Shown piece after piece: positions 651 through 63,173 of a stretch of DNA of 64,000 bases; positions within the stretch are counted from its first letter, which is position 1, and each line of letters opens with the position of its first letter. The position numbers were made by a program, and so were the translations under genes. This DNA comes from an uncultured Prevotella sp. (GTDB taxonomy: Bacteria; Bacteroidota; Bacteroidia; Bacteroidales; Bacteroidaceae). A model generated the notes under the pieces. That model saw only the letters and a list, made by a program, of their open reading frames with translations. It was not told where the DNA came from and ran no database searches. The DNA lies in assembly GCA_900318395.1 (NCBI GenBank), contig ONKL01000014.1, positions 1 through 64,000 of the forward strand, in the 5' to 3' direction.

Positions 651-812
651 CAATGAATTAGGAAATTCATTGCGACTATCGGCTGCGGTTCGGAAAAGCC
701 TGAGTAAACTCACTTTTCGCTCACCTTGCACGATAGTTGCACCAAGGCGGGAAGGAGGCCACCCGATGTAGTTTGGCCTTAATAATTTAATACCATTAAA
801 AAAGTTACAATT
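651..812 (+). promoter_or_regulatory. structured 5' leader of HU-like gene 1
   Basis: Three successive stems are visible. CAATGAATT/AATTCATTG (651-659 with 664-672) overlaps the transcription start. GCGACTATCG/CGATAGTTGC (672-681 with 731-740) closes a domain that contains GAAAAG/CTTTTC (693-698 with 713-718) and a small GAG/CTC hairpin. AGGCCA/TGGCCT (756-761 with 774-779) presents a 12-base loop CCCGATGTAGTT. The third stem-loop and the following TTTAATACCAT (786-796) recur before HU-like gene 2 at 63114-63156 with compensatory stem changes. A GGAGG (754-758) precedes the AUG-UAG of the loop, which is unusual where Shine-Dalgarno sequences are rare. I infer a cis-regulatory RNA; the ligand or partner is unknown. 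Confidence 0.65.
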
Positions 813-1355
813 ATGATTGAACTGTATCTTTCAAAGGTGACCGAGAGTTCGGAGACCGAGCAGGCGGGTAAGCTGTATGCCCGCGTGAGTTACAAGGAGA
901 CCATGGGCATCCATGAGATGGCCGAGCACATGGCTCATCACAACACGGCTTTCTCAGAGGGGCTGATCGTCGGTGTGCTGACTGACTTCGTGAAGTGTGT
1001 GCGCGAGATGGTGCTCAGCGGCAACACCGTGAAGGTGGGCAACCTGGCTATCTTCAAGGCTACCGTTGAGGCTAACGGACTGGAGACGCTCTACGACGCT
1101 GAGCAGGACAAGGTGGCTCAGGCCACGATGGGAACGCTGGCAGAGGGCGCGAAGACGGGTCCTGCCGTGAAGGTGATCAAGCTGCTGGCTCAGTCGACGG
1201 GCGACTTCACCCGTGAGGAGCTGAAGAAGGACGTGAAGTTCAGCTGGACTGACAAGACCAAGGCTGAGATTGCTGCTGCCAAGGGTGAGTCGACCAGCGG
1301 CGGTGCTTCAAGTGGCTCGAATGACTCGGGTGACGGGCCGACGAATGAGCCTTAA
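813..1355 (+). CDS. HU/IHF-related DNA-binding protein, 180 aa
   Basis: This looks like the Bacteroidetes HU-related family (histone-like DNA-binding protein, putative). A short N-terminal extension is followed by an alpha-helical part with the typical IHEMAEHM segment near residue 33. The beta-arm region follows at about 72-135, where VKVGNLAIFKATVEA occupies the HU saddle position. A low-complexity serine/glycine tail ends in SNDSGDGPTNEP. The ATG at 813 follows an AT-rich stretch and has no Shine-Dalgarno. The gene diverges from the smalltalk gene and sits behind a folded leader. The same tail ends the second HU-like protein at 63174. Non-specific DNA binding is inferred from the fold, not shown. 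Confidence 0.8.
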   Translation: MIELYLSKVTESSETEQAGKLYARVSYKETMGIHEMAEHMAHHNTAFSEGLIVGVLTDFVKCVREMVLSGNTVKVGNLAIFKATVEANGLETLYDAEQDKVAQATMGTLAEGAKTGPAVKVIKLLAQSTGDFTREELKKDVKFSWTDKTKAEIAAAKGESTSGGASSGSNDSGDGPTNEP

Positions 1356-1386
1356 ACTGCTTGCTGGGGTCAGGCCCTGCTCACTG

Positions 1387-1438
1387 GGGTCAGGCCCCAA
1401 AGTAAAGTCGCAGGCGACTGTACTTTGGCGCCAGACCC
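1387..1438. repeat. REP-like 52-base imperfect palindrome, copy 1
   Basis: The element reads GGGTCAGGCCCCAAAGTA, then AGTCGC-AG-GCGACT, then TACTTTGGCGCCAGACCC. The outer arms differ from perfect complementarity at two positions. An inverted copy is at 62941-62992. GGGTCAGGCCCC-type palindromes are typical of dispersed REP-like elements. A partial extra copy of the GGGGTCAGGCCC arm lies at 1366-1377. Confidence 0.8.
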
Positions 1439-1508
1439 GGGGGCTGCGCTTTGGAGCCAGACTCGGGGGCTGCGCTTTGGGACATGACCCGGGGGCTGCG
1501 CTTTGAGA
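1431..1508. repeat. three tandem 26-bp units
   Basis: GGGGGCTGCGCTTTG occurs at 1439-1453, 1465-1479 and 1491-1505, an exact 26-base period. The linkers vary slightly (CCAGACCC, CCAGACTC, CATGACCC). The array overlaps the right arm of the REP-like palindrome. Confidence 0.85.
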
Positions 1509-1512
1509 GAGA

Positions 1513-1549
1513 GGGGGGCTGGCTTCGCATGGGGCGGGGCTGGCCCCCT
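1513..1549 (+). terminator. terminator of HU-like gene 1
   Basis: A G-rich arm (ggggggctggc) and a C-rich arm (gctggccccc) form a GC-rich hairpin followed by ctactctgtttttt. A near-identical hairpin follows HU-like gene 2 at 63621-63656. Confidence 0.7.
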
Positions 1550-1589
1550 ACTCTGTTTTTTGTGGGGAAAAGAAAAAAGTTGGGTTTGC

Positions 1590-1620
1590 TTTGCTGATTG
1601 GAAAATTATGATTACCTTTG
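1590..1620 (+). promoter_or_regulatory. promoter of azlCD
   Basis: TTTG (1590-1593), 19 bases, then TACCTTTG (1613-1620). The short leader contains the small inverted repeat ATCAG-atctg-CTGAT (1628-1642). Confidence 0.75.
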
Positions 1621-1654
1621 CACCCCAAATCAGATCTGCTGATCGTTACTGAAT

Positions 1655-2380
1655 ATGACTAAGACGACATTACGAAAGGATATCATCGACGGACTGCGCG
1701 TAGGTTTTCCCATCGCGATGGGCTACTTTGCCGTGGCCTTCTCGCTGGGCATCATCGCCGTCCAGGCGGGGCTGACGGCTCCGCTGGGATTCCTGAGCAG
1801 CTTCTTCACAAGGGCTTCTGCAGGTGAATACGGCACTTACACGCTGGTGGCGATTGAGGCGGCCTATGCCGAGGTGGTGGTCATGTGCCTGGTGGTCAAC
1901 CTGCGCTACATGCTGATGAGTGCGGCCCTCTCGCAGAAGATTGCTCCTGGCACTTCGTGGTTCCACCGGCTGATGATGGCTTTCTGCATTACCGACGAGG
2001 TGTTTGGCGTCTCCGTGGCCCATCCTGGCTATACGCCGCCGGCCTACACCTACTCTGCCGCGCTGATTTCCACCCTGTTCTGGGCGTCGGGATGTGCGAT
2101 GGGCATCATGGCTGGCGGTCTGCTGCCCCAGTCGATGGTCACCGCCCTGAGCATGTCGCTCTACGGCATGTTCCTGGCCATCATCATCCCTCAGGCCCGT
2201 AACGACCATCATGTGCTCTACGCTGTGATAGCGAGCTTCGTGCTGAGCGGCCTGTTTGCCGTGCTGCCCGTTGTGAGCCAGCTGAGCAGCGGTATGCGCA
2301 CGGTGGTGCTCACGATCCTCATTTCCGCCGTTGCGGCCTGGCTTAAACCTATCAAAGTAGAATCGGATGGAAAATCATAG
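1655..2380 (+). CDS. azlC: AzlC-family branched-chain amino acid permease subunit
   Basis: This 241-residue membrane protein starts MTKTTLRKDIIDGLRVGFPI. It carries the AzlC opening GFPIAMGYFAVAFSLGIIA and the conserved charged segment YAEVVVMCLVVNLRYMLMSA near residues 69-89. About seven hydrophobic segments follow. AzlC and AzlD together form an inner-membrane exporter linked in other bacteria to branched-chain amino acid efflux; the substrate here is not shown. It overlaps azlD by 14 bases, so the two are probably translationally coupled. Length is normal for the family. Confidence 0.9.
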   Translation: MTKTTLRKDIIDGLRVGFPIAMGYFAVAFSLGIIAVQAGLTAPLGFLSSFFTRASAGEYGTYTLVAIEAAYAEVVVMCLVVNLRYMLMSAALSQKIAPGTSWFHRLMMAFCITDEVFGVSVAHPGYTPPAYTYSAALISTLFWASGCAMGIMAGGLLPQSMVTALSMSLYGMFLAIIIPQARNDHHVLYAVIASFVLSGLFAVLPVVSQLSSGMRTVVLTILISAVAAWLKPIKVESDGKS

Positions 2381-2663
2381 CATCATCATCTATATCCTGC
2401 TGGCCGTCATCGTGACGAACCTGATCCGTGTGACGCCGATGTTCTTCATCAAAGGGCAGATACAGAACCGCTTCGTGCGCAGTTTCCTCTATTATGTGCC
2501 TTACGTGACGCTGGCTGTGATGACGTTCCCCGACATGATTCTGACGACGACTTCACCGCTCCCGGGCATACTGGCCCTCGTGGCTGGCATCGTGGCCGCA
2601 TGGAAGCGCTTAGGGCTCTTCCCCGTAGCGGCCATCTGCTGTATCATTGCCTATATCTGCTGA
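2367..2663 (+). CDS. azlD: AzlD-family branched-chain amino acid transport subunit
   Basis: This is a 98-residue protein with three or four hydrophobic segments and the family segment TNLIRVTPMFFIKGQIQNRF followed by FLYYVPYVTLAVMTFPDM. It is the small partner of AzlC, starting 14 bases inside the azlC end. It stops at the TGA 2661-2663 after IIAYIC, precisely where similarity to an unrelated phosphatase begins. The last residues may therefore have been set by a deletion junction. The protein is close to the usual length and is probably functional. Confidence 0.85.
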   Translation: MENHSIIIYILLAVIVTNLIRVTPMFFIKGQIQNRFVRSFLYYVPYVTLAVMTFPDMILTTTSPLPGILALVAGIVAAWKRLGLFPVAAICCIIAYIC

Positions 2664-3021
2664 CGCGCCGCTGCTCATCGGGGATGGTGTCGGCGAACTG
2701 CCCTGCGACGCTAACATACCCGTAGGCTTCAACACCGAATGGGAATACACGCTGCAGGAGGCACAAATCTACTCAGGCACCACTATCCTGCTCTTCACCG
2801 ACGGACTGACCGAGGCCATGAACATCAATAATGAGCAGTTCCAGATGGACCGTATCAACGAGGTAGCCAATAAGGCCCTCGCACAGCAGCGAATAGAGCC
2901 GCGAGAACTCATCGAACAGATGACCGAGGCCGTTCACCAGTTCGTGGGCGATGCCGAGCAGAGCGACGACCTGACGATGATGGGCATTCAATTTATCAAG
3001 AAGACAGAACCATCAGCTTAA
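2647..3021 (+). pseudogene. 3' remnant of a SpoIIE/PP2C-type phosphatase gene
   Basis: The frame encodes the C-terminal half of a PP2C-like phosphatase domain of the SpoIIE/RsbU type. It has PLLIGDGVGELP, the signature LLFTDGLTEAMN and the late acidic motif SDDLTMMGI. Intact family members need a longer N-terminal part of the domain, with the first metal-binding aspartates, and usually a sensor domain; both are missing. Similarity starts right after the azlD stop, so a deletion probably fused the two. An ATG inside azlD is in frame, but a 124-residue half-domain would not be expected to be active. Confidence 0.75.
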
Positions 3022-3044
3022 AAAAGAACAAACGAGCTTATATA

Positions 3045-3296
3045 AAGAGGAAAGGGGAAACCAGAACAGTTTCCCCTTACCTTTTAGCGAGATAACCTAT
3101 TTCCCATAGTCTGACTCGCTCGGAAACGGGCCTCTGCCCTTTCACAGACTATGTGTATGCCGGTGTAAGTTCAAATGACGACATTGCGGACGCCCAGCAA
3201 ATCCGGCTGCTTCGCTCCAGCCTCCTTATATGGTATATACTGAGAAAAATCGATTGCCTAATTATCTTGTTGTTAGAATTTTTGCAAAGGGTTATC
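3045..3296 (-). ncRNA. probable structured non-coding RNA, about 250 nt (6S-like layout)
   Basis: A -7 element (TATATTTG on minus, 3302-3309) is followed by a predicted start near 3296. GATAACC at the 5' end pairs with GGTTATC near the 3' end, closing the molecule. Inside is a long rod: CATAGTCTG (3145-3153) pairs with CAGACTATG (3105-3113), with GAAAGGGC/GCCC-g-TTTC in its upper part. A GGCTG/CAGCC hairpin lies nearer the 5' end. The RNA ends in AAGGGGAAAC-tgttctg-GTTTCCCCTT followed by TCCTCTTTAT. No frame across it looks coding. The closing stem plus long hairpin resembles 6S RNA, but I recognise no diagnostic sequence. Confidence 0.5.
3052..3078 (-). terminator. hairpin terminating the minus-strand ncRNA
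   Basis: AAGGGGAAAC (3052-3061) and GTTTCCCCTT (3069-3078) are perfectly complementary with a 7-base loop. A pyrimidine-rich tract follows on the minus strand. It also lies 31 bases after the phosphatase remnant on plus. Confidence 0.7.
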
Positions 3297-3301
3297 GTGT
3301 G

Positions 3302-3309
3302 CAAATATA
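3302..3309 (-). promoter_or_regulatory. -7 element for the ncRNA
   Basis: TATATTTG on the minus strand matches TAnnTTTG. I see no clear TTTG 19-21 bases upstream, so the call rests on the -7 element and the structured RNA that follows. Confidence 0.45.
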
Positions 3310-3332
3310 AGTAAAAAAATGATAAGTGGTAC

Positions 3333-3356
3333 ACTCTTTAACATTTATTAAAGAGT
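3333..3356 (-). terminator. hairpin at the tilS 3' end
   Basis: ACTCTTTAA (3333-3341) and TTAAAGAGT (3348-3356) are perfect inverted repeats around a 6-base loop. They overlap the last codons of tilS. There is no strong U-tract, so terminator function is uncertain. Confidence 0.45.
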
Positions 3357-4679
3357 CTTTGCAACCGTTATGCGTAAAATCGAGGATGTCGTATTCTTGA
3401 CCCTATAGCGATTGTCGGTTCTGAGGCCTACAAGCCATAAGATGTCGCCTTTGGCATCGGTAACGACCAATTGGCGTCGCTTTTCCAACAGAGAAAGCTT
3501 CTGATCGGTGAGGAAATCGCTGACCAGACGATGCCCTTCCATGCCGAAAGGACAGAAGCGGTCGCCTGTCTGTACCGGACGGATGGTCAATGGGTATTGA
3601 ATGTTTGCTAAATCAATCGTTGCACATAACGCTGAGTTTGAGATGGATATAGTATCAGAATGTTCGAACGAAAAGCGCATATCTTCGGTATAGCGGTAGT
3701 GCCCTTCCTCGGGTATTTTCATCGTTTTCATCGGTGCCTTCAGAGGCTCCAGGATGAGCTGGCTGCGGTCGATGAGCAACGTGTGGGAAGCGGAGGTGAA
3801 CTCCCTACCCGATTCTCCGTTGAGATGGGCAAAAATCTGTTCGGTCTGCGCCGAATTGAAGCCGTAAGGCGACATCCATTCATGGAGGAACGCCTCGGGC
3901 GACGGCTGCTCTTGTAGGCTCTTGACAGATACTGCCTGCGCATCGCTTCCTTCGCGACGTTCTACCAAGGAGTCGAGCTGAGACCGAAGCGATGTGTTAA
4001 ATATTTTCTCTGCCTGCTGCAGATAATTTGCGGTTTTATCGATATTTTCGGCTACATTCGGGTTGATTTCGCGTAATAGAGGCAGTACGCGCAGGCGAAT
4101 CTTATTACGTACGACATCATCGACGAGGTTTGTAGAATCAACGACATAGTGCTGCCCGATATGACGGAGATAATCCTCAATCTCCTGGCGACTCAGACAG
4201 AGCAAAGGACGAACCACCTGACCGTTTCGGGGACGGATGCCCGTCAGTCCGTGGATGCCAGCCCCCCGGATGAGGTTCATCAGCAACGTCTCGACGGCAT
4301 CGTCGCGATGATGCGCCACGCAGACGGCTGACGCTCCGATATCCTGACACAACTGACGAAAATAGCCGTAACGGAAATCGCGCGCAGCCATTTCAATACT
4401 TACTTGATGTAAAGCAGCATATTCGGCTGTGTCAAAATGAATTAAGTGTAACGGGACGTTCTGATCCTTGCAGAGAGATTTCACGAATTCCTCATCGCGC
4501 TGGCTCTCTTCACCACGTAAATGAAAGTTACAATGTGCTGCCTCTATACGATAGCCCAGTTGCTTCAAAATGAGCAATAATGCCACACTATCTGCCCCAC
4601 CGCTAAGGGCTACGATATGGAGCCCGTCGCGCGACAGAAGCTGGTGCTTCGCGATGAAATCGGCAACTTTACTTTTCAC
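3348..4679 (-). CDS. tilS: tRNA(Ile)-lysidine synthetase
   Basis: The 443-residue protein modifies the wobble C of the tRNA-Ile CAU anticodon to lysidine using ATP and lysine. The PP-loop SGGADS is at residues 26-31, followed by the N-type ATP pyrophosphatase core (AAHCNFHLRGEESQRDE, HHRDDAVETLLMNLIRGAG). The C-terminal substrate-binding region includes RPVQTGDRFCPFGM and the terminal TilS-type domain. The start is GTG at 4679, inside a short tandem repeat lying between this gene and the upstream methyltransferase stop codon 17 bases away. Both genes are probably co-transcribed. Confidence 0.93.
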   Translation of the reverse strand: MKSKVADFIAKHQLLSRDGLHIVALSGGADSVALLLILKQLGYRIEAAHCNFHLRGEESQRDEEFVKSLCKDQNVPLHLIHFDTAEYAALHQVSIEMAARDFRYGYFRQLCQDIGASAVCVAHHRDDAVETLLMNLIRGAGIHGLTGIRPRNGQVVRPLLCLSRQEIEDYLRHIGQHYVVDSTNLVDDVVRNKIRLRVLPLLREINPNVAENIDKTANYLQQAEKIFNTSLRSQLDSLVERREGSDAQAVSVKSLQEQPSPEAFLHEWMSPYGFNSAQTEQIFAHLNGESGREFTSASHTLLIDRSQLILEPLKAPMKTMKIPEEGHYRYTEDMRFSFEHSDTISISNSALCATIDLANIQYPLTIRPVQTGDRFCPFGMEGHRLVSDFLTDQKLSLLEKRRQLVVTDAKGDILWLVGLRTDNRYRVKNTTSSILRITVAKTL

Positions 4680-4702
4680 TTTTCACCTTTCACTTTTCAC
4701 TC
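4668..4702. repeat. short tandem repeat spanning the tilS start
   Basis: On minus, units of the type GTGAAAA are repeated four to five times with slight variation. They span the stop of the methyltransferase gene and the GTG start of tilS, so a change in copy number would alter the tilS translation start. Confidence 0.7.
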
Positions 4703-5869
4703 CACATAAAGCACAAGCCCCTTGAGATATTCGCCCTCGGGATGATAGATGTTGATGGGGTGGTCGGCAGGCTGATGCAACTGGTGGAGGATGCGGACCT
4801 TACGACCTGCCAGGGCGGCAGCAGTAAAGACGGCATTGCGGAAATGATCCTTCGTGACGACCTGCGAACAACTGAAGGTGAAGAGAATCCCACCAGGCTG
4901 TATCTTCTGGAACGCCTTGTTGTTCAGGCGGGTATAGCCTTTGAGCGCATTATGGAGTGCCCCACGGTGCTTGGCAAAGGCAGGCGGATCGAGAATAATC
5001 AGGTCATACTGGTCGCCAGCCTGCTCAAGGAACTTGAAGGCATCCTCGCAGAAAGCCTGATGACGCTTGTCGCCAGGGAAGTTGAGCTCTACGTTGCGGT
5101 TGGTGAGTTCGATGGCCTTGGCACTACTGTCGACAGAGTGCACCAGCTGAGCCCCTCCGCGCATGGCATAGAATGAGAAGCCGCCGGTATAGCAGAACAT
5201 ATTGAGCACACGCTTGCCACGGGCAAAACGCTCAAGCAGCGAACGGTTCTCGCGCTGGTCGACGAAGAAGCCAGTCTTCTGACCGCGCAGCCAGTCGACA
5301 TAGAACTTCAGCCCGTTCTCGAGGGCTATATTATCGTCGCTTCCACCGTAGATGAAGCCATTCTCCATATCGTCCATGAAGGGTAAGGTCGTCTCGCTCT
5401 TATAATAGACATTCTCCAGGCGGGTGCCCATCACTCGGACGAGTTGCTCAGCAATCTCCTTGCGACAGAGGTGCATGCCGATGCTGTGAGCCTGCATGAC
5501 CGCCGTCTTGCCATAGACATCGATGATGAGCCCCGGCAGCAGGTCGCCCTCACCATGAACGAGTCGGTAGGTGTTGTTGTCGGGATTGTCGGCAATACCG
5601 ATGGATTGGCGCATCTTTAATGCCGATGTGAGTCGCGAGGCCCAGAAATCGGCATCGATGGGCACATCGTGGAAGGACAGCACGCGCACAGCGATGGAAC
5701 CTGCCTGATAATGACCAACTGCGATGAAATCGCCCTGACTGTTGAGTACTCGGACGGTCTCGCCCTCCTCTAAGTTCTTGTCCATCTGCTGGATAGCCCC
5801 TGAGAACACCCATGGGTGGAAGCGCAGCAGACTCTCTTCCTTGCCTCGTTTAAGATATATCTTCTTCAT
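4697..5869 (-). CDS. rlmI: RlmI-like 23S rRNA (cytosine-C5) methyltransferase
   Basis: 390 residues from the ATG at 5869 (MKKIYLKRGKEESLLRFHPW). The N-terminal PUA-type RNA-binding domain (about 1-85) includes HPWVFSGAI. A central linker is followed by a Rossmann SAM-binding domain with motif I MFCYTGGFSFYAMRGGA, the DPP motif ILDPPAFAKH and the cysteine motif FTFSCSQVV. By family it methylates a cytosine of 23S rRNA on C5; the exact position is inferred. The start overlaps the end of the exonuclease gene by 20 bases. A longer start 10 codons upstream is possible but less likely, because the MKKIYL start aligns with the family. Confidence 0.88.
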   Translation of the reverse strand: MKKIYLKRGKEESLLRFHPWVFSGAIQQMDKNLEEGETVRVLNSQGDFIAVGHYQAGSIAVRVLSFHDVPIDADFWASRLTSALKMRQSIGIADNPDNNTYRLVHGEGDLLPGLIIDVYGKTAVMQAHSIGMHLCRKEIAEQLVRVMGTRLENVYYKSETTLPFMDDMENGFIYGGSDDNIALENGLKFYVDWLRGQKTGFFVDQRENRSLLERFARGKRVLNMFCYTGGFSFYAMRGGAQLVHSVDSSAKAIELTNRNVELNFPGDKRHQAFCEDAFKFLEQAGDQYDLIILDPPAFAKHRGALHNALKGYTRLNNKAFQKIQPGGILFTFSCSQVVTKDHFRNAVFTAAALAGRKVRILHQLHQPADHPINIYHPEGEYLKGLVLYVE

Positions 5870-6506
5870 GATTAGAAGGTTTCGTTTCTTCTGGAACAAT
5901 CTCGAGCTGATAATCGCCCGTCTCGCTCAGACGGACCAGCTCGTCGTAAATGACCACACAAGCCCAGGCGTCGATGGCGGCATAGTTCTTCTGACTTGAC
6001 TTCAGCACGTCGCGCTCCCAGTTGGATAGGCGCTCGGTCTTGCTGATGCGCTCATGGAACAGGTTCGCATAGATCTTCACCAGACTCTGGTCTTCGATGC
6101 CTATGGCCTTCACCATGTCCTGCAGGTCGATGAAACCAGCAGGTTCGAACGTTCCCAGCTCTTTCAGCGAGAGGATATCGTTTCGCCAAGCGAGTCCGAC
6201 CTTCTTGATGGAAGTGGTTTCGAGCAGACGGATGATATCGGGGGTCAGTCCCGTATGGTTCAGACGGAAAAGGAAGCAGCAGTCGTGGGTGGCCACCTGC
6301 AGCAGGGAGCACTTGTAATGCGTTCCTTTCGAGAAGGCCGGGCGAGTCTCGGTGTCGAATCCCAACACATCCTGTGTAAGCAGATAATCGACACATCGCC
6401 CTGCCTCTTCCTTGGAAACTACAACCACGATCTTACCGGGGTAAGTTACCTTTGGTAAGTCGTTCAAAGCCTCCTTTTTTAACTTATTATATATTAACTT
6501 TTTCAT
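5850..6506 (-). CDS. DEDDy-type 3'-5' exonuclease (RNase D-like)
   Basis: 218 residues from ATG 6506. The exonuclease motifs are visible: GFDTETRP (first D and E), GLAWRNDILSLKEL (second D region) and YAAIDAWACVVIYDEL (Y and last D of motif III). It contains only the catalytic domain, without HRDC, as in the short 3'-5' exonucleases of Bacteroidetes. It degrades single-stranded nucleic acid ends by family inference; the substrate is unknown. It opens the minus operon exonuclease-rlmI-tilS and diverges from ftsK. The -7 element is only 9 bases upstream of the ATG, so the mRNA has almost no leader. A TTG start four codons upstream is possible but would overlap that promoter region. Confidence 0.85.
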   Translation of the reverse strand: MKKLIYNKLKKEALNDLPKVTYPGKIVVVVSKEEAGRCVDYLLTQDVLGFDTETRPAFSKGTHYKCSLLQVATHDCCFLFRLNHTGLTPDIIRLLETTSIKKVGLAWRNDILSLKELGTFEPAGFIDLQDMVKAIGIEDQSLVKIYANLFHERISKTERLSNWERDVLKSSQKNYAAIDAWACVVIYDELVRLSETGDYQLEIVPEETKPSNHEEDIS

Positions 6507-6515
6507 TTCTGTGTG

Positions 6516-6523
6516 CAAAATTA
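6516..6523 (-). promoter_or_regulatory. -7 element of the exonuclease-rlmI-tilS operon
   Basis: Minus strand TAATTTTG, nine bases before the start codon. Confidence 0.6.
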
Positions 6524-6566
6524 CAAAAAAAACTGCGATTTATGATGAAATCTGAATTTTTTAAGC

Positions 6567-6574
6567 TACTTTTG
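6567..6574 (+). promoter_or_regulatory. -7 element of ftsK
   Basis: TACTTTTG lies 27 bases before the ftsK ATG. The -33 TTTG is weak. Confidence 0.55.
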
Positions 6575-6601
6575 CATCAAAATTATGCAAACGACATCAA
6601 T

Positions 6602-9076: not shown

Positions 9077-9687
9077 AAATGACAGCTTTCAAAGTGATGG
9101 TGACTGTACTATTCACTCTTCACTTTTCACTATTCACAGCTACAGCCCAGACAGCCAAGAGTGTACTCGACAAGGCTGCACAGACGATAACCGTAAAGGA
9201 GGGCGTGAAGGCCAACTTCAAGATGACCGGCAGTCATGGGCACACCAGCGGCACCATTCTTATCAAGGGTAAGAAGTTTCATGCCACCACGACAGTGGCT
9301 ACCATCTGGTTTGACGGCAAGACCCAATGGACCTATATGAAGAATAACGACGAGGTGAACATCAGTACGCCTACAGAGGCACAGTTGCAGGCCATCAATC
9401 CCTATAATTTCATCAACCTCTATAAGAACGGCTACGCATCAACCCTCAATAAGTCGGGCAAGGACTTTATCGTACATCTGACGGCAGAGTCGAAAGCCAA
9501 AAAGATTCAGGAGTTGTTTGTTACCGTCGACAAAAAGTCGTATCATCCGACGCAGGTGAAGTTGCTGCAAGGTAACAAATGGATTATCTTCGACATCACG
9601 AACCTGAAGAAGGAGACTATTGCCGACAGTCAATTCCGATTCAATTCGAAAGATTTTCCCAATGCTGAGGTGATCGACCTGAGATGA
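9073..9687 (+). CDS. LolA-like outer-membrane lipoprotein carrier
   Basis: 204 residues with a signal peptide (MKMTAFKVMVTVLFTLHFSL, cleavage near TATAQ). The body reads as the LolA/LolB beta-fold: SGTILIKGKKFHATTT, TIWFDGKTQWTYMKNNDEV and STPTEAQLQAINPYNFI. LolA ferries lipoproteins through the periplasm; Bacteroidetes carry several diverged copies, so which cargo this one serves is open. It overlaps ftsK by 4 bases. The signal-peptide codons are made of a short tandem repeat (tattcact/cttcactt type, 9110-9137). Confidence 0.8.
   Translation: MKMTAFKVMVTVLFTLHFSLFTATAQTAKSVLDKAAQTITVKEGVKANFKMTGSHGHTSGTILIKGKKFHATTTVATIWFDGKTQWTYMKNNDEVNISTPTEAQLQAINPYNFINLYKNGYASTLNKSGKDFIVHLTAESKAKKIQELFVTVDKKSYHPTQVKLLQGNKWIIFDITNLKKETIADSQFRFNSKDFPNAEVIDLR
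9110..9137 (+). repeat. tandem repeat inside the LolA-like signal peptide
   Basis: Four units of the type ttcact(a/c)t encode the hydrophobic core of the signal peptide. Units are 7-8 bases, so slippage would shift the frame. Confidence 0.55.
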
Positions 9688-9689
9688 AG

Positions 9690-9727
9690 GAGAATGAAAA
9701 AATGAAAGAATGAGGGAATGAATAAGT
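9690..9727 (+). repeat. tandem repeat spanning the DUF5687 start codon
   Basis: Repeated (g)aatgaaa-like units lie between the lolA-like stop and the start of the next gene. The start codon at 9718 is part of the array, and several alternative ATGs lie in it. Confidence 0.6.
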
Positions 9728-11199: not shown

Positions 11200-11225
11200 C
11201 TTTTTTGAAGAAATTCAGGAAAAAG

Positions 11226-11257
11226 TTTGGTAGTTTCAAAAAAAGTGTGTACCTTTG
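11226..11257 (+). promoter_or_regulatory. promoter of the tRNA cluster
   Basis: TTTG (11226-11229), 20 bases, TACCTTTG (11250-11257), 20 bases before the first tRNA. Confidence 0.85.
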
Positions 11258-11277
11258 CACCCGCAAAAGAAAAAGAT

Positions 11278-11350: not shown

Positions 11351-11352
11351 CA

Positions 11353-11375: not shown

Positions 11376-11389
11376 CTTTTTGAAATGAT

Positions 11390-53596: not shown

Positions 53597-53649
53597 AGTT
53601 AAGAGTTTAGAGTTAAGAGTTAAGAATTAAGAGATAAGAGTTTAGAGAT
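53593..53649. repeat. heptamer tandem repeat ending in the ABC ATPase start codon
   Basis: About eight units of AGTTAAG/AGTTTAG fill the gap from the secA stop to the ATG at 53648. The last unit supplies the A of the start codon. Confidence 0.8.
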
Positions 53650-54388: not shown

Positions 54389-54398
54389 GAACTGATTG

Positions 54399-56135: not shown

Positions 56136-56139
56136 GTAT

Positions 56140-56382
56140 ATGGAAAGAAAACAGATTTTTAGTAAGCTGAATGAAATATTCATCGACGTGTTAGACCTTG
56201 ATGAGTGTGAACTGACCGAGGAGACAAGTGCCAACGATATAGAAGAGTGGGATTCTCTGAGTCACATCCAGCTGATTGTGGCTATCGAGAAGTCCTTCGG
56301 CATCAAGTTCACCTCCTTGGAGATTATGAAATGGAGGAACGTCGGCGAGATGGTGAACTCCATGGAGGAGAAGCTTAAATAG
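56140..56382 (+). CDS. acyl carrier protein
   Basis: 80 residues. The phosphopantetheine serine lies in EEWDSLSHIQLIVAIE, residues about 36-51, with the typical acidic helices (IFIDVLDLDECELTEETSAN). It is distinct from a housekeeping fatty-acid ACP: DSLSH instead of DSLDT or similar, and it sits directly after the FkbH-like gene. It probably carries the short acyl group from FkbH to the membrane acyltransferase at 56462. It is encoded in a different frame from a longer overlapping open frame. Confidence 0.88.
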   Translation: MERKQIFSKLNEIFIDVLDLDECELTEETSANDIEEWDSLSHIQLIVAIEKSFGIKFTSLEIMKWRNVGEMVNSMEEKLK

Positions 56383-56390
56383 TTTGGGTT

Positions 56391-56458
56391 TACAGTTTAC
56401 GGTTTACGGTTTACAGTTTACGGTTTACAGTTTACGGTTTACAGTTTACAGATTATAG
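56391..56458. repeat. heptamer tandem repeat between ACP and MBOAT genes
   Basis: GTTTACG/GTTTACA is repeated nine to ten times with a strict 7-base period. It ends 3 bases before the MBOAT start. Confidence 0.9.
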
Positions 56459-56461
56459 TTG

Positions 56462-57928
56462 ATGGTTGTCAATTCCTATAGCTTCCTGCTGTTCTTTGTA
56501 GTCGTTTTCATCGTCTACTACCTGCCATTCTTCAAGAAGACGCCCATGTTCCAGAACACATGGCTCCTGCTGGTGAGCTATGTCTTCTATGGCATGGCCG
56601 ACTGGCGCATGATTCCATTGTTATTAGGAACCACCATCGTATTCTGGCTGATAGGTCTCTGGCTCCACCGCCAAATGGAGGAAAGACATACTAAAGCCGC
56701 CTCACGCATCACCACCTTCAGCGTCGTCCTTGGAGTTGGTATCTTGTTGTATTTCAAATACCTGAATTTCTTCGTTGAATCATTAGCAGAGCTTCTGAAT
56801 GCCATTGGTCTTCAGGTTTCATGGAGCACGCTGAACATCATTTTGCCTATCGGCGTCAGCTTCTTCACCTTCAAGCTGATCAGCTATATCATCGAGATCC
56901 ACCGCGAGCATATCCAGCCCTGCAGGGACCTGACGGAGTTTGCAGCCTATATCGCCTTCTTTCCCACCATCCTCTCTGGTCCTATCGATCGTCCCGACAA
57001 GTTCCTGCCTCAGATGAAGCAGGTTCACACCCTCGACTATTCGTTGGCTGCTGATGGATGCCGACAGATCCTGTGGGGCATGTTCACCAAGATGTGTATT
57101 GCCGACAATCTGGCGATTATCACTAATCAGGCGTGGAATGGCTATGATCATCTGCCCTCCACGATGCTCCTTATTGCCGCCCTACTCTATCCCATCCAGC
57201 TTTATGCCGACTTCGACGGTTATTCCAACATGGCCATTGGCGTTGGAAAGATACTGGGCTATCGTGTCAACCGCAACTTCAATCACCCCTTCCTGGCCCG
57301 TAACATGGCTGAGTATTGGCGCAGATGGCACATGTCGCTCACAGGTTGGATTACCGACTATGTATTCATGCCCCTGAACATCGCCTTCAGGAATATCGGC
57401 AACTGGGGTATTGTGATGGCTGCGCTGATCAACCTTATCCTGATAGGTCTTTGGCACGGAGCCAACTGGACTTATGGCGTGTTCGGTCTATATCATGGTC
57501 TGCTGTTTATCCCACTCATCCTCTCAGGCTCCTTCGGTAAGAACAAGAAGCTGAAGGCCAATAGTCATGACCTGCCATTCCTGAAGGACTTCGGCAAGAT
57601 GCTGGGAACCTTCTGTCTGGTGGCTGTCGGCCATATCATTTTCCGTGCTGGAAATATCGCTGAGGCAATGGCCTTTATCCAGGCAATGATTACGAATGGT
57701 CTGGAGGGAGGCTCCATCATCGACAGTTATGGAAAGCTCTATATAGGCTTTGCCCTCATCCTGCTGATGATTGAGTGGATCCAGAGGAAAGAAGAGCATG
57801 CACTCCAGTTACAGACATTTAAGCTGTTCCACTCCAGAGTCCTGCGCTATGCGCTCTACCTGTTTATCATCCTGCTCATCCTGACATTTACCGGTAAGAG
57901 CCAGGCATTCATCTATTTCCAATTTTAA
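56462..57928 (+). CDS. MBOAT-family O-acyltransferase (AlgI/DltB type)
   Basis: 488 residues from ATG 56462, with a TTG one codon earlier. About ten membrane helices. The MBOAT signature is present: VSFFTFKLISYIIEIHRE, LSGPIDRPDKFLPQM, PFLARNMAEYWRRWHMSLTG and the active-site histidine segment LIGLWHGANWTYGVFGLYHG. Such proteins move acyl groups from the inside to a polymer outside the membrane, as AlgI acetylates alginate. With an FkbH-ACP pair upstream and an SGNH gene downstream, the donor here may be an ACP-bound C3 acid instead of acetyl. Confidence 0.9.
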   Translation: MVVNSYSFLLFFVVVFIVYYLPFFKKTPMFQNTWLLLVSYVFYGMADWRMIPLLLGTTIVFWLIGLWLHRQMEERHTKAASRITTFSVVLGVGILLYFKYLNFFVESLAELLNAIGLQVSWSTLNIILPIGVSFFTFKLISYIIEIHREHIQPCRDLTEFAAYIAFFPTILSGPIDRPDKFLPQMKQVHTLDYSLAADGCRQILWGMFTKMCIADNLAIITNQAWNGYDHLPSTMLLIAALLYPIQLYADFDGYSNMAIGVGKILGYRVNRNFNHPFLARNMAEYWRRWHMSLTGWITDYVFMPLNIAFRNIGNWGIVMAALINLILIGLWHGANWTYGVFGLYHGLLFIPLILSGSFGKNKKLKANSHDLPFLKDFGKMLGTFCLVAVGHIIFRAGNIAEAMAFIQAMITNGLEGGSIIDSYGKLYIGFALILLMIEWIQRKEEHALQLQTFKLFHSRVLRYALYLFIILLILTFTGKSQAFIYFQF

Positions 57929-57933
57929 AAAGT

Positions 57934-58869
57934 ATGAAGCAGTTTCTGAAGACCCTATTTGGATTTGGCATACTATTGCTTCTGATGTGTAGCATCATTG
58001 AGGTGGCATTGCTTTTCCGTCCCAATGTCTATGCCTACAAGCGACAGTATATGGATGAGCATGTGAAGGACATCAAAGTGCTGCTGTTGGGCAGTTCCCA
58101 TATCGAGGAGGCAGTCAAGCCCGAACTGGTTGGCAAGGGGGTGTTCAACCTCGCCATTTCTGCCAGGCTCAGGGAATACGATGTCGCTCTGGCCGAGATA
58201 TATGTACCCCGAATGGACAGTCTGCAGGCTGTCGTCGTTCCCGTAGACTACACCAACTTCTTCTTCGAGCGTCAACATGAGAATCCTCTGACAAAATCAA
58301 TTCCCGAGGATCTGTCGGGCACCTGCCGTTGCATGCATACCAAATATATGGGTACGCGCATCGACCCCTTCTGGTATTTCTCTGAGATCCTGAATTCCAA
58401 ATTGAACTACATGTCACGCTTTTGGAACAACCGTCAGAAGCTACAGGAATGTGATTCTTTAGGATATGTGAAACTCGACATCAAGGACCGCTTGACAGAC
58501 TGGGACCTGAGGTCCATCCCTGCCGTTATCGATACTACAAAAGCCATCGACCAGGCTGGATATGAAGAAATCAGGCAACAATATGAGCAACTGGCAATGG
58601 TAACCCAGCAGAAACAGGTCAGACTTGTACTGGTAGCTCCCCCTGTGTACAAGACCTATCAGGAGTCTATCCATCCGATCGTACTCAACGACATCCACCA
58701 GTTTGTCAGGAAACTCCAAGCCAGATATCCGCATGTGGAATACCATGAGCACCTCTTCGACAACAGGTTCACATCCGATGACTTCCAGGATGCCAGCCAC
58801 CTGAATGAAAGCGGTGCCATCAAATATTCGAAGATACTTGCAAAAATCATATATCATGAGAATTCTTAA
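57934..58869 (+). CDS. SGNH-type periplasmic acyltransferase/esterase partner
   Basis: 311 residues with one N-terminal membrane segment (LFGFGILLLLMCSIIEVALL). LLLGSSHIEEAVKPELVG is the SGNH block I (Ser in GSSH), and FQDASHLNESGAIKYSKIL gives the late Asp-His pair of the family. Proteins like this (AlgX/AlgJ, WssI, DltD) work with MBOAT partners and complete acyl transfer to a polymer in the periplasm. It begins 5 bases after the MBOAT gene and overlaps the CotH gene by 14 bases. The polymer target is unknown. Confidence 0.8.
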   Translation: MKQFLKTLFGFGILLLLMCSIIEVALLFRPNVYAYKRQYMDEHVKDIKVLLLGSSHIEEAVKPELVGKGVFNLAISARLREYDVALAEIYVPRMDSLQAVVVPVDYTNFFFERQHENPLTKSIPEDLSGTCRCMHTKYMGTRIDPFWYFSEILNSKLNYMSRFWNNRQKLQECDSLGYVKLDIKDRLTDWDLRSIPAVIDTTKAIDQAGYEEIRQQYEQLAMVTQQKQVRLVLVAPPVYKTYQESIHPIVLNDIHQFVRKLQARYPHVEYHEHLFDNRFTSDDFQDASHLNESGAIKYSKILAKIIYHENS

Positions 58870-60286
58870 ACTTATAGCTTACATCATCCTGTTTAGCCAA
58901 TCTACAGCCCATGTAACAGCACAGAGCCGACAAGAAATACTCGACCTCGGCATGCCACTCATGGAAATTACAACCGTCAATGGAGAAATTCCGTCCTTCG
59001 TTGGTATCACCCACCCACAAGGAGCTAATGGCAAGACTATTACACAAGTTACCAAAGTTCCAGGAAGGATAACGATTACCATCGGCAATGAAATAGTCTA
59101 TGACAGTGGCGACTATGAGGAAGATCTCAGTGGAATGAAAATAAGCGTCAGAGGAAATGCCTCTGCTTGGGACTATGACCCCAAGGCCTACAAAATTAAA
59201 CTGGAGAAGAAGGCAGACCTATTACGACGTGGAAACGAAAAGAAATACAAGGACAAACACTGGGTATTGCTCAGGGACTTGGAACTGCGCTGCACTTTTG
59301 GATTCATGGTCAACAGCCTGATGGGTCTCCAATGGACACCAGCCAGCGAACACGTCAACGTGTTCCTCAATGGCAGGTATCTTGGACTATACCTACTGAC
59401 TGAGTCTGTCCGCAGGAATCCAGACTGCCGCCTCAATGTAGACAAGACGGGCTTTGTCTTTGAATACGACCAGTATTGGTGGAACAGCGATCTCTACGTG
59501 GAGAGTTCTTTGGACGGCGAGCCACTGAACTATACATTCAAATACCCCAAACCTGAAGAGATTACTACGGAACAACTGGATTATTTTAGGGAGATGGTCG
59601 ACAAGATGGAGCAGTCAATCAACGATGGCACCTATCCAGAATACATCGACATGGACTCGTTCACCAGATGGATCCTGGCGCGTGACTTGATAGGCTGCTG
59701 GGACGGCACAGGAGCCAACTACTTCCTGACCAAATACGATAACACAGACAACTCGAAGATCATGATGGCCAATATGTGGGACCTGGATGGCTCTTACGTC
59801 ATGACCGACGATTGGGACGGAGCACACTACCACTTCATCTTCAAGCCCCTGCTCGACCCTGCCAATGAGCACAGCAAGGCCTTTATCGATGCTTACCTGC
59901 AACTCTGGGACCAGCTCTCGCCCACCATCTTCGACACCATCAACAATCAGCTCGATGACTTCAAGAACGCCAAGGGGGCTGCAGCGCTGAGCCAGGCTCT
60001 GCTCTACGACCAGACAAAATATGACAAGGGCACGAGGGATGTAGCCGACTATGTAAAGATAGCCCAGAAGTGGTATACAGCTCGGAAGGAATGGATGACC
60101 GAGGCAATGGACAGTCTGAAGAGGATTACCCCCACAGGAATACGTCACTACAAGACAGCCAGCCAGGCAGAACAAATATTCACCCTCGATGGAAGGCGCA
60201 TAGACAAGCTTCAAAGAGGCTTCAACATCATCCGCAAACAGGACGGAATATGGCGGAAAGTCATCGTGAAGCATCCTCATAAGTAG
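58856..60286 (+). CDS. CotH kinase-family secreted protein
   Basis: 476 residues from ATG 58856, signal peptide to TAQSRQ. The CotH pattern is visible: ISVRGNASAWDYDPKAYKIK, WVLLRDLELRCTFGFMVNSL, HVNVFLNGRYLGLYLLTESV, RDLIGCWDGTGANYFLTK and NMWDLDGSYV. These hold the nucleotide and metal-binding acidic residues of CotH spore-coat kinases. A periplasmic or extracellular kinase lacks obvious ATP, so the donor is unclear. The end (AEQIFTLDGRRIDKLQRG, then RKVIVKHP) resembles the GH5 tail and the C-terminal motif of many Prevotella secreted proteins. It may modify the same acceptor as the acyl genes. Confidence 0.82.
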   Translation: MRILKLIAYIILFSQSTAHVTAQSRQEILDLGMPLMEITTVNGEIPSFVGITHPQGANGKTITQVTKVPGRITITIGNEIVYDSGDYEEDLSGMKISVRGNASAWDYDPKAYKIKLEKKADLLRRGNEKKYKDKHWVLLRDLELRCTFGFMVNSLMGLQWTPASEHVNVFLNGRYLGLYLLTESVRRNPDCRLNVDKTGFVFEYDQYWWNSDLYVESSLDGEPLNYTFKYPKPEEITTEQLDYFREMVDKMEQSINDGTYPEYIDMDSFTRWILARDLIGCWDGTGANYFLTKYDNTDNSKIMMANMWDLDGSYVMTDDWDGAHYHFIFKPLLDPANEHSKAFIDAYLQLWDQLSPTIFDTINNQLDDFKNAKGAAALSQALLYDQTKYDKGTRDVADYVKIAQKWYTARKEWMTEAMDSLKRITPTGIRHYKTASQAEQIFTLDGRRIDKLQRGFNIIRKQDGIWRKVIVKHPHK

Positions 60287-60311
60287 GTATTTTTACCCGA
60301 TTGAGCGCGCA

Positions 60312-60326
60312 TGCAACTTGGTTGCA
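60312..60326. repeat. small perfect hairpin upstream of feoAB
   Basis: TGCAAC-ttg-GTTGCA lies just before the -33 region of the feoAB promoter. It may be an operator. It does not look like a Fur box. Confidence 0.45.
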
Positions 60327-60339
60327 CAAATAATTTGTG

Positions 60340-60347
60340 TATCTTTG
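60340..60347 (+). promoter_or_regulatory. -7 element of feoAB
   Basis: TATCTTTG, 35 bases before the ATG. Confidence 0.7.
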
Positions 60348-60382
60348 CACCAGAATCGTGAGTCATAAAATATAAATAAGGT

Positions 60383-62794
60383 ATGAAACTCTCAGAATTG
60401 AAGACAGGCGAGAAAGGTATCATCGTCAAGGTGTTGGGTCATGGTGGATTCCGCAAGCGTATCATCGAGATGGGATTCATCAAGGGCAAGGAAGTGGAAG
60501 TGCTGCTCAATGCACCGCTGCAGGACCCCGTGAAATACAAGCTGATGGGCTATGAAGTGTCACTCCGTCATCAGGAGGCCGACAATATCGAAGTGGTATC
60601 TACCGACACCCCCATCGAGGCCACCCATTTCTCTCTGACCGAAGATACCAGCATCCACGAGGACGACTATATCAAGCACGAGGCTATGAAGGAGCGCCGT
60701 ATGATCAATGTGGCCCTGGTGGGTAATCCCAACTGTGGCAAGACCTCGCTCTTCAACTTTGCCTCTGGAGCCCATGGCCATGTGGGCAACTACTCTGGTG
60801 TCACCGTCGATGCCACCGAGGCCCATGCAGAGTTCTTCGGCTATGAGTTCAACCTCACCGACCTGCCTGGTACCTACTCCCTCTCCTGCTACTCGCCCGA
60901 GGAGCTCTATGTGAGGGAGCACCTGACGGAGTCGATGCCCGATGTGGTCATCAATGTCATCGATGCATCCAACCTTGAGCGCAACCTCTATCTGACCACC
61001 CAGTTGGTGGACATGAACATCCGTATGGTCTGCGCCCTCAACATGTATGATGAGTTTGAGCGTCGTGGCGACCATGTCGACCTCTCCACCCTGAGCCACC
61101 TCTTCGGTATGCCGATGATTCCCACCTCTTTCAAGAATGGCGAAGGTGTCAAGGAGCTCTTCCGAGCAGTCATTCAGGTCTACGAGGGCACCAGCAAGTT
61201 CTCTCGCCACCTGCATATCAACTACGGGCATGAGATTGAGGACGGCATCAGCCACATCCAGAAATACCTGAAGGCCGACGAGCACATCACCCAGCACTAC
61301 TCCACCCGATACCTCTCCCTGAAGCTGCTGGAGCACGACAGTCAGGTGCTCGACTATCTGGGACACCACATGGCTGGAGAGAACCGCATGGACGACTTCC
61401 ACCAGCTGACTAATGCTCGCGACAAGGCTTCGGCACGTGTGAAGGAGGAGACTGGCAACGACTCTGAGACAGCCATCATGGATGCGAAATACGGCTTCAT
61501 CAACGGTGCCCTGAAGGAGGCCAAGTTCAAGACCGGCACCAAGAAGGACACCTATAAGACCACCCACAGGATCGACAGTCTGCTCTCGCATAAGTATCTG
61601 GGCTTCCCCATTTTCTTCCTGCTGCTCTACATCATGTTCGAGACCACCTTCACCCTCGGCCAGTACCCGATGGACTGGATAGAGGAAGGCGTGGCCTGGC
61701 TGGGCGACAAGATCAGTGGCAACATGACCGACGGCCCCCTGAAGGCCATGCTGGTCGATGGAGTCATCGGCGGTGTGGGCTCTGTCATCGTCTTCCTACC
61801 ACAGATCCTCATCCTCTACTTCTTCATCTCGCTGATGGAGGACTCAGGCTATATGGCCCGCGCAGCCTTCATCATGGACAAACTGATGCATAAGATGGGG
61901 CTCCACGGCAAGTCGTTCATCCCCCTCATCATGGGCTTCGGCTGTAATGTACCGGCTGTGATGGCCACCCGCACCATTGAGAGCCGCCGCTCACGCATCA
62001 TCACCATGATGATCCTGCCCTTCATGAGCTGCTCAGCCCGCCTGCCCATCTACATTATGATAGCTGGCACCTTCTTCTCGCTGCAATACCGCTCGTGGGT
62101 GCTCCTGTCGCTCTATGCCTTTGGCATCATGATGTCAGTCCTTGTCAGCAAGCTGTTCTCATCGCTGGTCATCAAGGGCGAGGACACCCCCTTCGTGATG
62201 GAGCTGCCCCCCTATCGCTGGCCTACCCCCAAAGCCATCTGGCGACACACCTGGGAGAAAGGCAAGGAGTATCTCAAGAAGATGGGAGGCATCATCCTCG
62301 TGGCATCCATCATCGTCTGGGCACTCGGCTACTTCCCCCACAACGAAGAACTCACCCGGGAGCAACAGCAGGAGCAGAGCTACATCGGGCGCATGGGACA
62401 GGCCATCGAACCCATCTTTATGCCCCAGGGTTTCAACTGGAAGCTCGATGTCTCGCTGCTGGCAGGTGTCGGAGCCAAAGAGATTGTGGCCTCCACCATC
62501 GGTGTGCTCTACTCAGGCGACGACAGCTTTGGCGATGATGAAGACTTCAGCGACGATACAGAGAAGTACACCCATCTGCGCCAGATGATGCTCCAGGAAG
62601 GCATCACCCCACTGGCAGCCTACGCATACCTTATATTTATATTGCTCTACTTCCCCTGCATCGCCACCATTGCAGCCATCAAGAACGAGACAGGCTCCTG
62701 GCGCTGGGCACTCTTTGCTGCCGGCTACACCACCGTCGTGGCCTGGGTCACCTCAGCCCTCATCTATCAGATAGGCCGCCTCCTCATGGCATAA
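60383..62794 (+). CDS. feoB: fused ferrous iron transporter FeoA-FeoB
   Basis: 803 residues. Residues 1-75 are a FeoA SH3-like domain (MKLSELKTGEKGIIVKVLGH). The FeoB GTPase follows: G1 GNPNCGKTS at 114-122, G3 DLPG at 160-163. The membrane part has about eleven helices with the Gate segments (FLPQILILYFFISLMEDSGY; ILPFMSCSARLPIYIMIAGT). It imports Fe(II), the usual iron form for an anaerobe. The FeoA fusion is common in Bacteroidetes. G4 appears as ALNMYDEF, with NMYD in place of NKxD, as in many FeoB. It is a single gene between a promoter and a terminator. Confidence 0.95.
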   Translation: MKLSELKTGEKGIIVKVLGHGGFRKRIIEMGFIKGKEVEVLLNAPLQDPVKYKLMGYEVSLRHQEADNIEVVSTDTPIEATHFSLTEDTSIHEDDYIKHEAMKERRMINVALVGNPNCGKTSLFNFASGAHGHVGNYSGVTVDATEAHAEFFGYEFNLTDLPGTYSLSCYSPEELYVREHLTESMPDVVINVIDASNLERNLYLTTQLVDMNIRMVCALNMYDEFERRGDHVDLSTLSHLFGMPMIPTSFKNGEGVKELFRAVIQVYEGTSKFSRHLHINYGHEIEDGISHIQKYLKADEHITQHYSTRYLSLKLLEHDSQVLDYLGHHMAGENRMDDFHQLTNARDKASARVKEETGNDSETAIMDAKYGFINGALKEAKFKTGTKKDTYKTTHRIDSLLSHKYLGFPIFFLLLYIMFETTFTLGQYPMDWIEEGVAWLGDKISGNMTDGPLKAMLVDGVIGGVGSVIVFLPQILILYFFISLMEDSGYMARAAFIMDKLMHKMGLHGKSFIPLIMGFGCNVPAVMATRTIESRRSRIITMMILPFMSCSARLPIYIMIAGTFFSLQYRSWVLLSLYAFGIMMSVLVSKLFSSLVIKGEDTPFVMELPPYRWPTPKAIWRHTWEKGKEYLKKMGGIILVASIIVWALGYFPHNEELTREQQQEQSYIGRMGQAIEPIFMPQGFNWKLDVSLLAGVGAKEIVASTIGVLYSGDDSFGDDEDFSDDTEKYTHLRQMMLQEGITPLAAYAYLIFILLYFPCIATIAAIKNETGSWRWALFAAGYTTVVAWVTSALIYQIGRLLMA

Positions 62795-62806
62795 CCCCAA
62801 AACAAA

Positions 62807-62836
62807 GGGCGCAGAGACTTTCCCATCCCTGCGCCC
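62807..62836 (+). terminator. terminator of feoAB
   Basis: GGGCGCAG (62807-62814) pairs with CTGCGCCC (62829-62836). Only a weak T-tract (tacttgttc) follows. Confidence 0.75.
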
Positions 62837-62852
62837 TACTTGTTCAACACAC

Positions 62853-62892
62853 TTTCGTTCCTCCTTCCTCCTTTCTCGTTCCTCCTTCCTCG
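62853..62892. repeat. direct repeat of a pyrimidine-rich unit
   Basis: TCGTTCCTCCTTCCTC occurs at 62855-62870 and again at 62876-62891, followed by related TCGCTC units. No coding frame. Confidence 0.65.
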
Positions 62893-62940
62893 CTCGAAGC
62901 TCCTTCGTCGCTCAAGTCCTCGCTCAAAGCACAGCCCCCT

Positions 62941-62992
62941 GGGTCTGGCGCCAAAGTACAGTCGCCTGCGACTTTACTTTGGGGCCTGACCC
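62941..62992. repeat. REP-like 52-base palindrome, copy 2 (inverted)
   Basis: The reverse complement matches 1387-1438 at every position, and similarity continues for about 20 more bases on the right-arm side (including a GGGGGCTGNGCTTTG unit). It lies upstream of HU-like gene 2, while copy 1 is downstream of HU-like gene 1. Confidence 0.85.
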
Positions 62993-63017
62993 CAGCGAGC
63001 ACGGGCGAATTCCAATG

Positions 63018-63053
63018 CGCAAGAATTAACAAGATTTAATGAAATTTCTTGCG
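63018..63053. repeat. 8-bp inverted repeat upstream of the HU-like gene 2 promoter region
   Basis: CGCAAGAA (63018-63025) and TTCTTGCG (63046-63053) with a 20-base AT-rich spacer. Position suggests an operator or an upstream terminator. Confidence 0.5.
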
Positions 63054-63099
63054 GAAAAAGTTGCGTAATTTACATATTTTTCGAATCTTTGTAAATTAA

Positions 63100-63173
63100 T
63101 AATAAAGAGGGAAGCGACCACCCGATGTAGTTGGTTGCATAGTAGTTTAATACCATGAAATATCTTTAAAACT
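63100..63173 (+). promoter_or_regulatory. leader of HU-like gene 2 with the shared hairpin
   Basis: GCGACCA (63114-63120) pairs with TGGTTGC (63132-63138), presenting CCCGATGTAGT. TTTAATACCAT follows at 63146-63156. The loop and 3' segment are identical to those before HU-like gene 1 while the stem differs in a compensatory way. The long 5' domain present before gene 1 is absent. The -7 region is probably GAATCTTTG (63083-63091), a weak match. Confidence 0.6.

Follow-up and report, generated by a model that had tools for sequence, protein, structure and literature searches.

The window analysed here, a 64,000-nucleotide (nt) stretch of DNA from an uncultured Prevotella sp. (GenBank assembly GCA_900318395.1, contig ONKL01000014.1, positions 1 to 64,000 of the forward strand), carries two genes for HU-like proteins, each preceded by a similar leader. 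An earlier note, made from the letters alone, had described the leader as a hairpin with a fixed loop, a stem whose pairs differ in matching ways between the two sites, and a shared 3' block. Both sites are as described, and stem, loop and 3' block can be read directly from the sequence. The parts of the two leaders and their genes are:

643..650, + strand: promoter-like element TACCTTTG of copy 1, matching TAnnTTTG, which we take to be the consensus of the Bacteroidetes -7 promoter element
748..751, + strand: CGGG of copy 1, predicted 5' strand of pseudoknot helix S1, with CCCG at 762-765 as putative partner by complementarity and invariance
756..779, + strand: covarying stem-loop S2 of copy 1 (AGGCCA 756-761 / TGGCCT 774-779)
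762-773, + strand: loop of copy 1, CCCGATGTAGTT, 12 nt, beginning with CCCG
786..796, + strand: 3' block of copy 1, TTTAATACCAT
813..1355, + strand: HU-HIG gene 1, 180 amino acids (aa), ATG at 813, with a glycine/serine-rich tail and terminal GDGPTNEP
63108..63111, + strand: AGGG of copy 2, predicted 5' strand of S1, a rare variant with A opposite G in which three of four pairs remain
63114..63138, + strand: covarying stem-loop S2 of copy 2 (GCGACCA 63114-63120 / TGGTTGC 63132-63138; 7 pairs, one of them G-U)
63121-63131, + strand: loop of copy 2, CCCGATGTAGT, 11 nt
63146..63156, + strand: 3' block of copy 2, TTTAATACCAT, predicted to pair with ATGGCATTAAA at 63174-63184 and so to hide the start codon
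63174..63596, + strand: HU-like gene 2, 140 aa, ATG at 63174, apparently missing the middle segment of its paralogues

The window has two exact occurrences of the 11-base loop. With at most one mismatch allowed, five window sites are found against 0.74 expected, a number reached by none of 100 shuffles.

Stem covariation and a predicted pseudoknot

Compensatory change in the stem was assessed on a model-derived alignment of 93 rows (90 distinct sequences), which is fitted to the stem and therefore leans the counts. In these sequences all seven stem pairs change on both sides, an outcome reached by 2 of 500 shuffles; cells changed on both sides number 63 against 12.5 in shuffles, 98.9% of the stem cells are paired (84.9% when shuffled), and none of the 500 shuffles attains the observed covariation score. 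Sliding the partner out of register as a control makes the pairing support collapse, and the eight seed sequences alone are 100% paired with three double-changed pairs. The many G-U wobbles among the pairs favour an RNA structure over a DNA palindrome. Additionally, 148 of 155 instances found by a DNA pattern scan parse with stem S2 (125 distinct), and six more show a bulged form by eye. These results confirm the stem-loop as a selected RNA fold with compensatory changes beyond chance, as the earlier note had proposed from two copies, and the further covariation it expected among new matches is present. It had also named what would speak against the fold, namely a lack of additional matches at HU-like genes or a loop that varies over an unvarying stem; neither pattern was found. 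The claim of a fixed loop held in part: among the 125 distinct instances G7, A9 and G10 never change, CCCG does so once, and positions 5, 6, 8 and 11 vary, although this invariance arises partly by construction, because parts of the motif were preset in the scan of named genomes.

Nearly all copies have a conserved GCGGGA ahead of the stem, and its CGGG is complementary to CCCG, with which the loop opens; this putative partner of the loop is a part of the leader that the earlier note overlooked. We infer a compact H-type pseudoknot in which CGGG pairs with CCCG, with an S1 of 4 base pairs (bp) and an S2 of mostly 6-8 bp. The S1 positions are complementary in 98.9% of cells (90 sequences) with almost no variation, and both tetranucleotides are kept in divergent copies in which other loop bases have changed (L203, CCCGTGGGAAGC; L210, CCCGTCATTGT). 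The predicted loop lengths (L1 1-4 nt in 143 of 148 instances, L2 0 nt, L3 7 nt) suit the geometry rules for H-type pseudoknots. Several observations weaken the case for this helix. Since S1 hardly varies, it has no real covariation, and what follows its sole double change (L166) is a frameshifted gene. A 4-nt complement arises by chance in 5% of trials if the conserved block is shuffled and in 15% if the loop is shuffled. L002, L135 and L176 (wobble) are exceptions to the pairing, and in nested folds S1 and S2 compete, the probability of S2 being 0.56.

For 94 of 100 leaders the promoter-like TAnnTTTG is found no more than 150 nt upstream, compared with 30 of 430 random windows from the same loci, which were unmatched in base composition. 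The leader lies at a median of 27 nt after TTTG, and at 72 nt or more in a quarter of cases. An extra upstream leader part, GGCTGCGGTTCGG...CACCTTGCA (window 661-745), is common to copy 1 and the copies on contigs C100 and C69 of the same genome (L003, L007). It sits in a long inverted repeat whose arms differ compatibly (CTATCG/CGATAG versus CCATCG/CGATGG); an exact 50-mer of it is confined to loci of this genome, and a similar one is present in L198.

Distribution of the leader and the genes behind it

Further copies, which the earlier note predicted, were found both in the genome of origin and in others. A third exact copy of loop and block lies on another contig of the same genome, which has six copies in all according to the covariance model, the other three differing in loop end, stem or spacing. 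A strict text pattern (CCCGATGTAGT..TTTAATACCAT) matched the genome of origin only among 100 and was rejected as too strict in favour of the covariance model. Model R1, a stem-only covariance model built from eight aligned copies with window copy 1 and the copy on C73 left out, recovered both omitted copies (49 and 30 bits). At E≤0.01 it matched 92 of 398 genomes of the genus (29 of the 175 well-completed ones), with up to nine copies per genome. A refined model, R2, was used for the wider searches. Across the family it matched 12 of 301 genomes in five of 30 genera; one match (L208), the sole one of its genus, is probably false by eye, so that four genera remain. Searches of two other genera in the family matched 4 of 17 and 6 of 45 genomes. 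Across the order, R2 matched one of 295 genomes (184 genera), namely the genome of origin. The pattern scan of named genomes gave at least 118 stretches; 75 of the 80 matches listed are labelled Prevotella or Prevotellaceae, many of them from sheep, goat, yak, deer or rumen, and the isolate Prevotella sp. MA2016 is among those listed. The leader is an RNA family in Prevotella, mostly of the ruminant gut, and in some relatives.

With a mobile-element or phage origin in view, no plasmid match was found. One viral contig bears the leader, followed by a frame that is HU-like by eye, and a 5.7-kilobase record in a phage collection encodes a protein with 33% identity.

To the loci already given we added 60 further R1 matches among those listed, making 93 copies. 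Behind 86 of them an HU-like frame lies within 900 nt, as judged by a profile that was built from the same proteins and is partly circular. Four of the remaining seven leave the contig after 31-54 nt, and three precede HU remnants whose first residues are still HU-like. Upstream, the same profile found no HU frame on either strand of 92 stretches, whose median length is shorter at 365 nt. The position before HU-like genes noted for the two window copies is therefore a general one. Likewise, among the 155 pattern-found instances 144 have an HU frame behind them, six leave the contig, L159 and L162 precede remnants, L313 and L329 lack an HU frame, and L288 is a spurious match. L159, L162, L166 and L177 have leaders surviving before frameshifted or truncated HU-like genes, which points to fast gene turnover; in G000, G007, G031 and G037, many contigs break off within HU-like genes or just where these begin, which suggests that several copies have near-identical leaders and N-terminal halves in common and differ in their C-terminal halves.

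In Bacteroidetes the HU-HIG genes have multiplied greatly, and we know of no established role for them. At E≤0.001, Pfam HU-HIG (PF18291) matches 74 of 75 full-length leader-linked proteins, PF00216 also matches 19 of the 75, and TIGR01201 matches 69 of 75. The window gene at 813 matches PF18291 with an E-value of 4.5e-12 (46.6 bits; cut-off 26.2) and falls under TIGR01201's own cut-off. No Pfam or NCBIfam family matches the gene at 63174 by itself; over its first 81 residues it shares 93% identity with a paralogue on C100 (G000:C100), which does match PF18291, and the matches of its relatives split near residue 80, as if a middle segment were absent. The label HU-HIG rests on the best-matching model, because PF18291 also finds matches where the genome has ordinary HU, in 9 of 14 controls (E. 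coli, for example). The proteins behind the leader belong to subfamilies which we call MALK, MAKI, MIEL, MARN, MSVF and others, and their cross-group identity to the first protein of the alignment is mostly 9-36%.

The leader is present on few PF18291 matches and therefore marks a subset of HU-HIG genes. Four genomes searched with this model gave 70 matches; among the 30 loci listed, 28 could be judged upstream and two have the leader. In the genome of origin, comparison of coordinates places it on five of 19 matches, and two more start where a contig does, so that nothing upstream of them could be judged. On a tree of the short domain from 87 proteins with the leader and 55 without it, the presence of the leader changes state 15 times, against a mean of 44 and a minimum of 36 in 500 shuffles, as if the leader were inherited, yet gained or lost repeatedly.

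A second motif, GGCRGGANAGTCCYGACCTG, was seen before the start of other HU-like genes (L333, L341, L376, L377) in three of 60 genomes. It shows a double change from G-C to A-T (CGGG/CCCG versus CAGG/CCTG), and in L376 CTAATACCATG itself provides the start codon.

In the window, the two otherwise unlike HU proteins have the tail GDGPTNEP in common. By eye, the same GC-rich repeat flanks both genes in opposite orientation (1363-1440 and 62938-63003), and similar terminator-like hairpins follow them (1512-1560 and 63620-63665). A hydrophobic frame of 28 aa (MNKTVKTILQ...) at 45-131 on the minus strand has no NCBIfam match; it resembles the 'smalltalk' small proteins, which, we assume, adjoin HU and amidase genes.

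The 3' block and the start codon

A usable ATG start is present in 104 of the 125 distinct instances; the others are cut, short or have a distant start. The middle half of the 104 cases have 34-37 nt between S2 and AUG, and the block ends 14-25 nt before AUG in 103 of them, the exception using the ATG of the block itself as start. In most groups, CCAT of the block can pair with AUGG, while the bases just 5' of it can pair with codons 3-6, and here the pairing depends on the subfamily: AATCT with AGATT in MAKI, CATTTCT with AGAAATG in MARN, and TTTAAT with ATTAAA in MALK. In L139, a MALK gene with another synonymous codon, TTTTCTAAT pairs with ATTGAAAA, and in many MIEL genes UACC pairs with GGUA across the AUG. 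On this predicted pairing, the 3' block of most groups is antisense to the start region of its own gene, which was missed when it was regarded as a free-standing motif.

In predicted folds, the mean probability of an unpaired AUG is 0.23 with the leader (n=103). For comparison, it is 0.50 for 54 mechanically defined open reading frames of the window and 0.49 both after shuffling the leaders and for 26 HU-HIG genes that lack the leader, a few of whose starts are possibly misplaced. Swapping leaders between groups weakens the predicted pairing from -4.92 to -3.45 kcal/mol (100 distinct cases), and permutation of the groups gives p = 0.0001 (18 groups) and p = 0.0077 (12 coarser groups) for the preference for the own group. 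An earlier duplex test with the 12-nt block had yielded a smaller gap (-4.69 for own versus -4.35 for swapped leaders), after which a longer piece of the leader was used. Judged by predicted folds, the Prevotella set as a whole behaves as a start-codon-sequestering leader with compensation. Leader-to-codon compensation, if confirmed, would be an unusual case in nature of a start-codon lock that can be seen to track its coding sequence.

Not every copy follows this pattern, and the following cases count against it. In the MSVF group, pairing with the own gene is worse than with foreign ones, and several single cases barely fold the hairpin. The predicted minimum-energy fold of window copy 1 leaves the AUG uncovered by the block and places it in the loop of a small hairpin formed locally. 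The 15 copies listed for genus g195 keep the stem, the loop and GCGGGA or ACGGGA, but ten of them lack the block by eye, often having an A/C-rich run instead, and AUG is unpaired at control level there (0.47; 11 of 12 tried). Because most g195 copies are without the block, the stem-loop is the more widely kept part of the leader and the start-codon hairpin is mainly a feature of Prevotella.

Two further ideas were rejected. An anti-lock pairing between TGGT in the 3' strand of S2 and ACCA of the block was seen by eye in the common form; it was discarded because TGGT is missing wherever the closing is GA/TC, as in 16 of 125 distinct instances. A leader peptide starting from CCATG was dismissed as well, as many copies have ATA, ATC or CAC in place of the block's ATG.

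Possible modes of action and known systems

The orientation of the leader, the promoter-like element, its position and the start-codon hairpin argue for a control of translation. We give about even chances to the leader acting as an RNA operator that controls HU-HIG translation, most likely in an autogenous, family-wide form. In such an operator, the stem-loop about 35 nt before the start codon would fold with the upstream CGGG into the pseudoknot, and the start-codon hairpin would lower initiation. A factor acting in trans, most likely an HU-HIG protein, would read the pseudoknot; excess HU-HIG protein, own or paralogue, would bind it and keep the adjacent start region closed. Paralogues with the same leader would thereby be held at a common level, as in the operator of phage T4 gene 32. 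That the HU-HIG protein itself binds is suggested by gene linkage and by the analogy with gene 32. Against self-reading stands the near-invariant loop before proteins only 9-36% identical, which would fit better with one common reader. The linkage has gaps, too: L313 and L329 are without an HU gene, and so are three of the 15 listed g195 copies (L371, L372, L374). Nearly 500 nt beyond the stem-loop of L371, a frame resembling aldehyde dehydrogenase was seen by eye.

Such a common reader, acting in trans, could be a small RNA or a protein that is not HU-HIG, for instance a host RNA-binding protein, setting one regulon. Besides the same loop bases before such divergent subfamilies, the leader state on the tree, heritable but gained and lost repeatedly, is consistent with this; however, a general regulator would allow other gene families to replace HU, which none does among the 93 copies, and an HU gene is missing only at the five loci just named. 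We consider such a reader unlikely. The one loop across divergent paralogues, with a start-hiding hairpin alongside, would equally suit a riboswitch, in which the small pseudoknot (about 33 nt, with nearly invariant CGGGA / CCCG / GnAG) binds a metabolite or ion and the hairpin serves as expression platform. Since the genes encode predicted DNA-binding proteins, neither enzymes nor transporters, no Rfam riboswitch matches and the hairpin is mostly absent in g195, a riboswitch seems rather improbable. Quite improbable is an element without switching, a constitutive 5' structure for protecting the mRNA or keeping initiation at a fixed low rate: the frequent proximity to a predicted transcription start and the common cover of the start codon agree with it, but the constant bases of L3 and CCCG exceed the need of a plain protective stem.

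Returning to the RNA operator, a broader proposal is put forward tentatively, as somewhat doubtful: a new class of regulatory RNA, in which a compact pseudoknot sensor sets an HU-HIG regulon in rumen Prevotella, the hairpin re-evolves with each gene, and sensor and lock are separable modules. A shared RNA control point would reveal which HU-HIG paralogues are co-regulated and would offer a handle on their function.

The earlier note knew of no named element with this loop, and Rfam 15 agrees: at the gathering cut-off the window contains four tRNAs only and nothing at either leader, and at E≤1 four related loci have nothing at the leader. A literature search found no description of the leader and no RNA leader tied to HU-HIG, with subscription papers mostly outside its coverage, so that an earlier description is possible.

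Three known systems invite comparison. preQ1-I is a small H-type pseudoknot riboswitch with a translational platform; the HU leader resembles it as a predicted compact H-type pseudoknot coupled to such a platform and differs in having neither an Rfam match nor a gene link to a metabolite. The predicted pseudoknot near genes of DNA-handling proteins recalls the STAXI motif. As described in parts of PMC2864571, STAXI occurs in two or three tandem repeats near genes for single-stranded DNA-binding protein (SSB), integrase, topoisomerase and antirestriction proteins, whereas the HU leader is single, lies before HU-like genes and has no Rfam match. The third system is the T4 gene 32 operator, for which passages of PMC535899 describe a pseudoknot of about 28 nt plus an initiation region; there, as predicted for the HU leader, a pseudoknot lies upstream of the initiation region in the leader of a gene for a nucleic-acid-binding protein. 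The same passages describe the stretch behind the T4 pseudoknot as UUAAA-rich and less structured; the product of gene 32 is an SSB. No unstructured initiation region of this type was found in the HU leader, where AUG is mostly paired in Prevotella and about at control level in g195; a predicted start-codon hairpin often follows the putative pseudoknot in Prevotella, and the genes are HU-like paralogues. Without claiming membership, we suggest by analogy that the HU leader may work like the T4 gene 32 operator.

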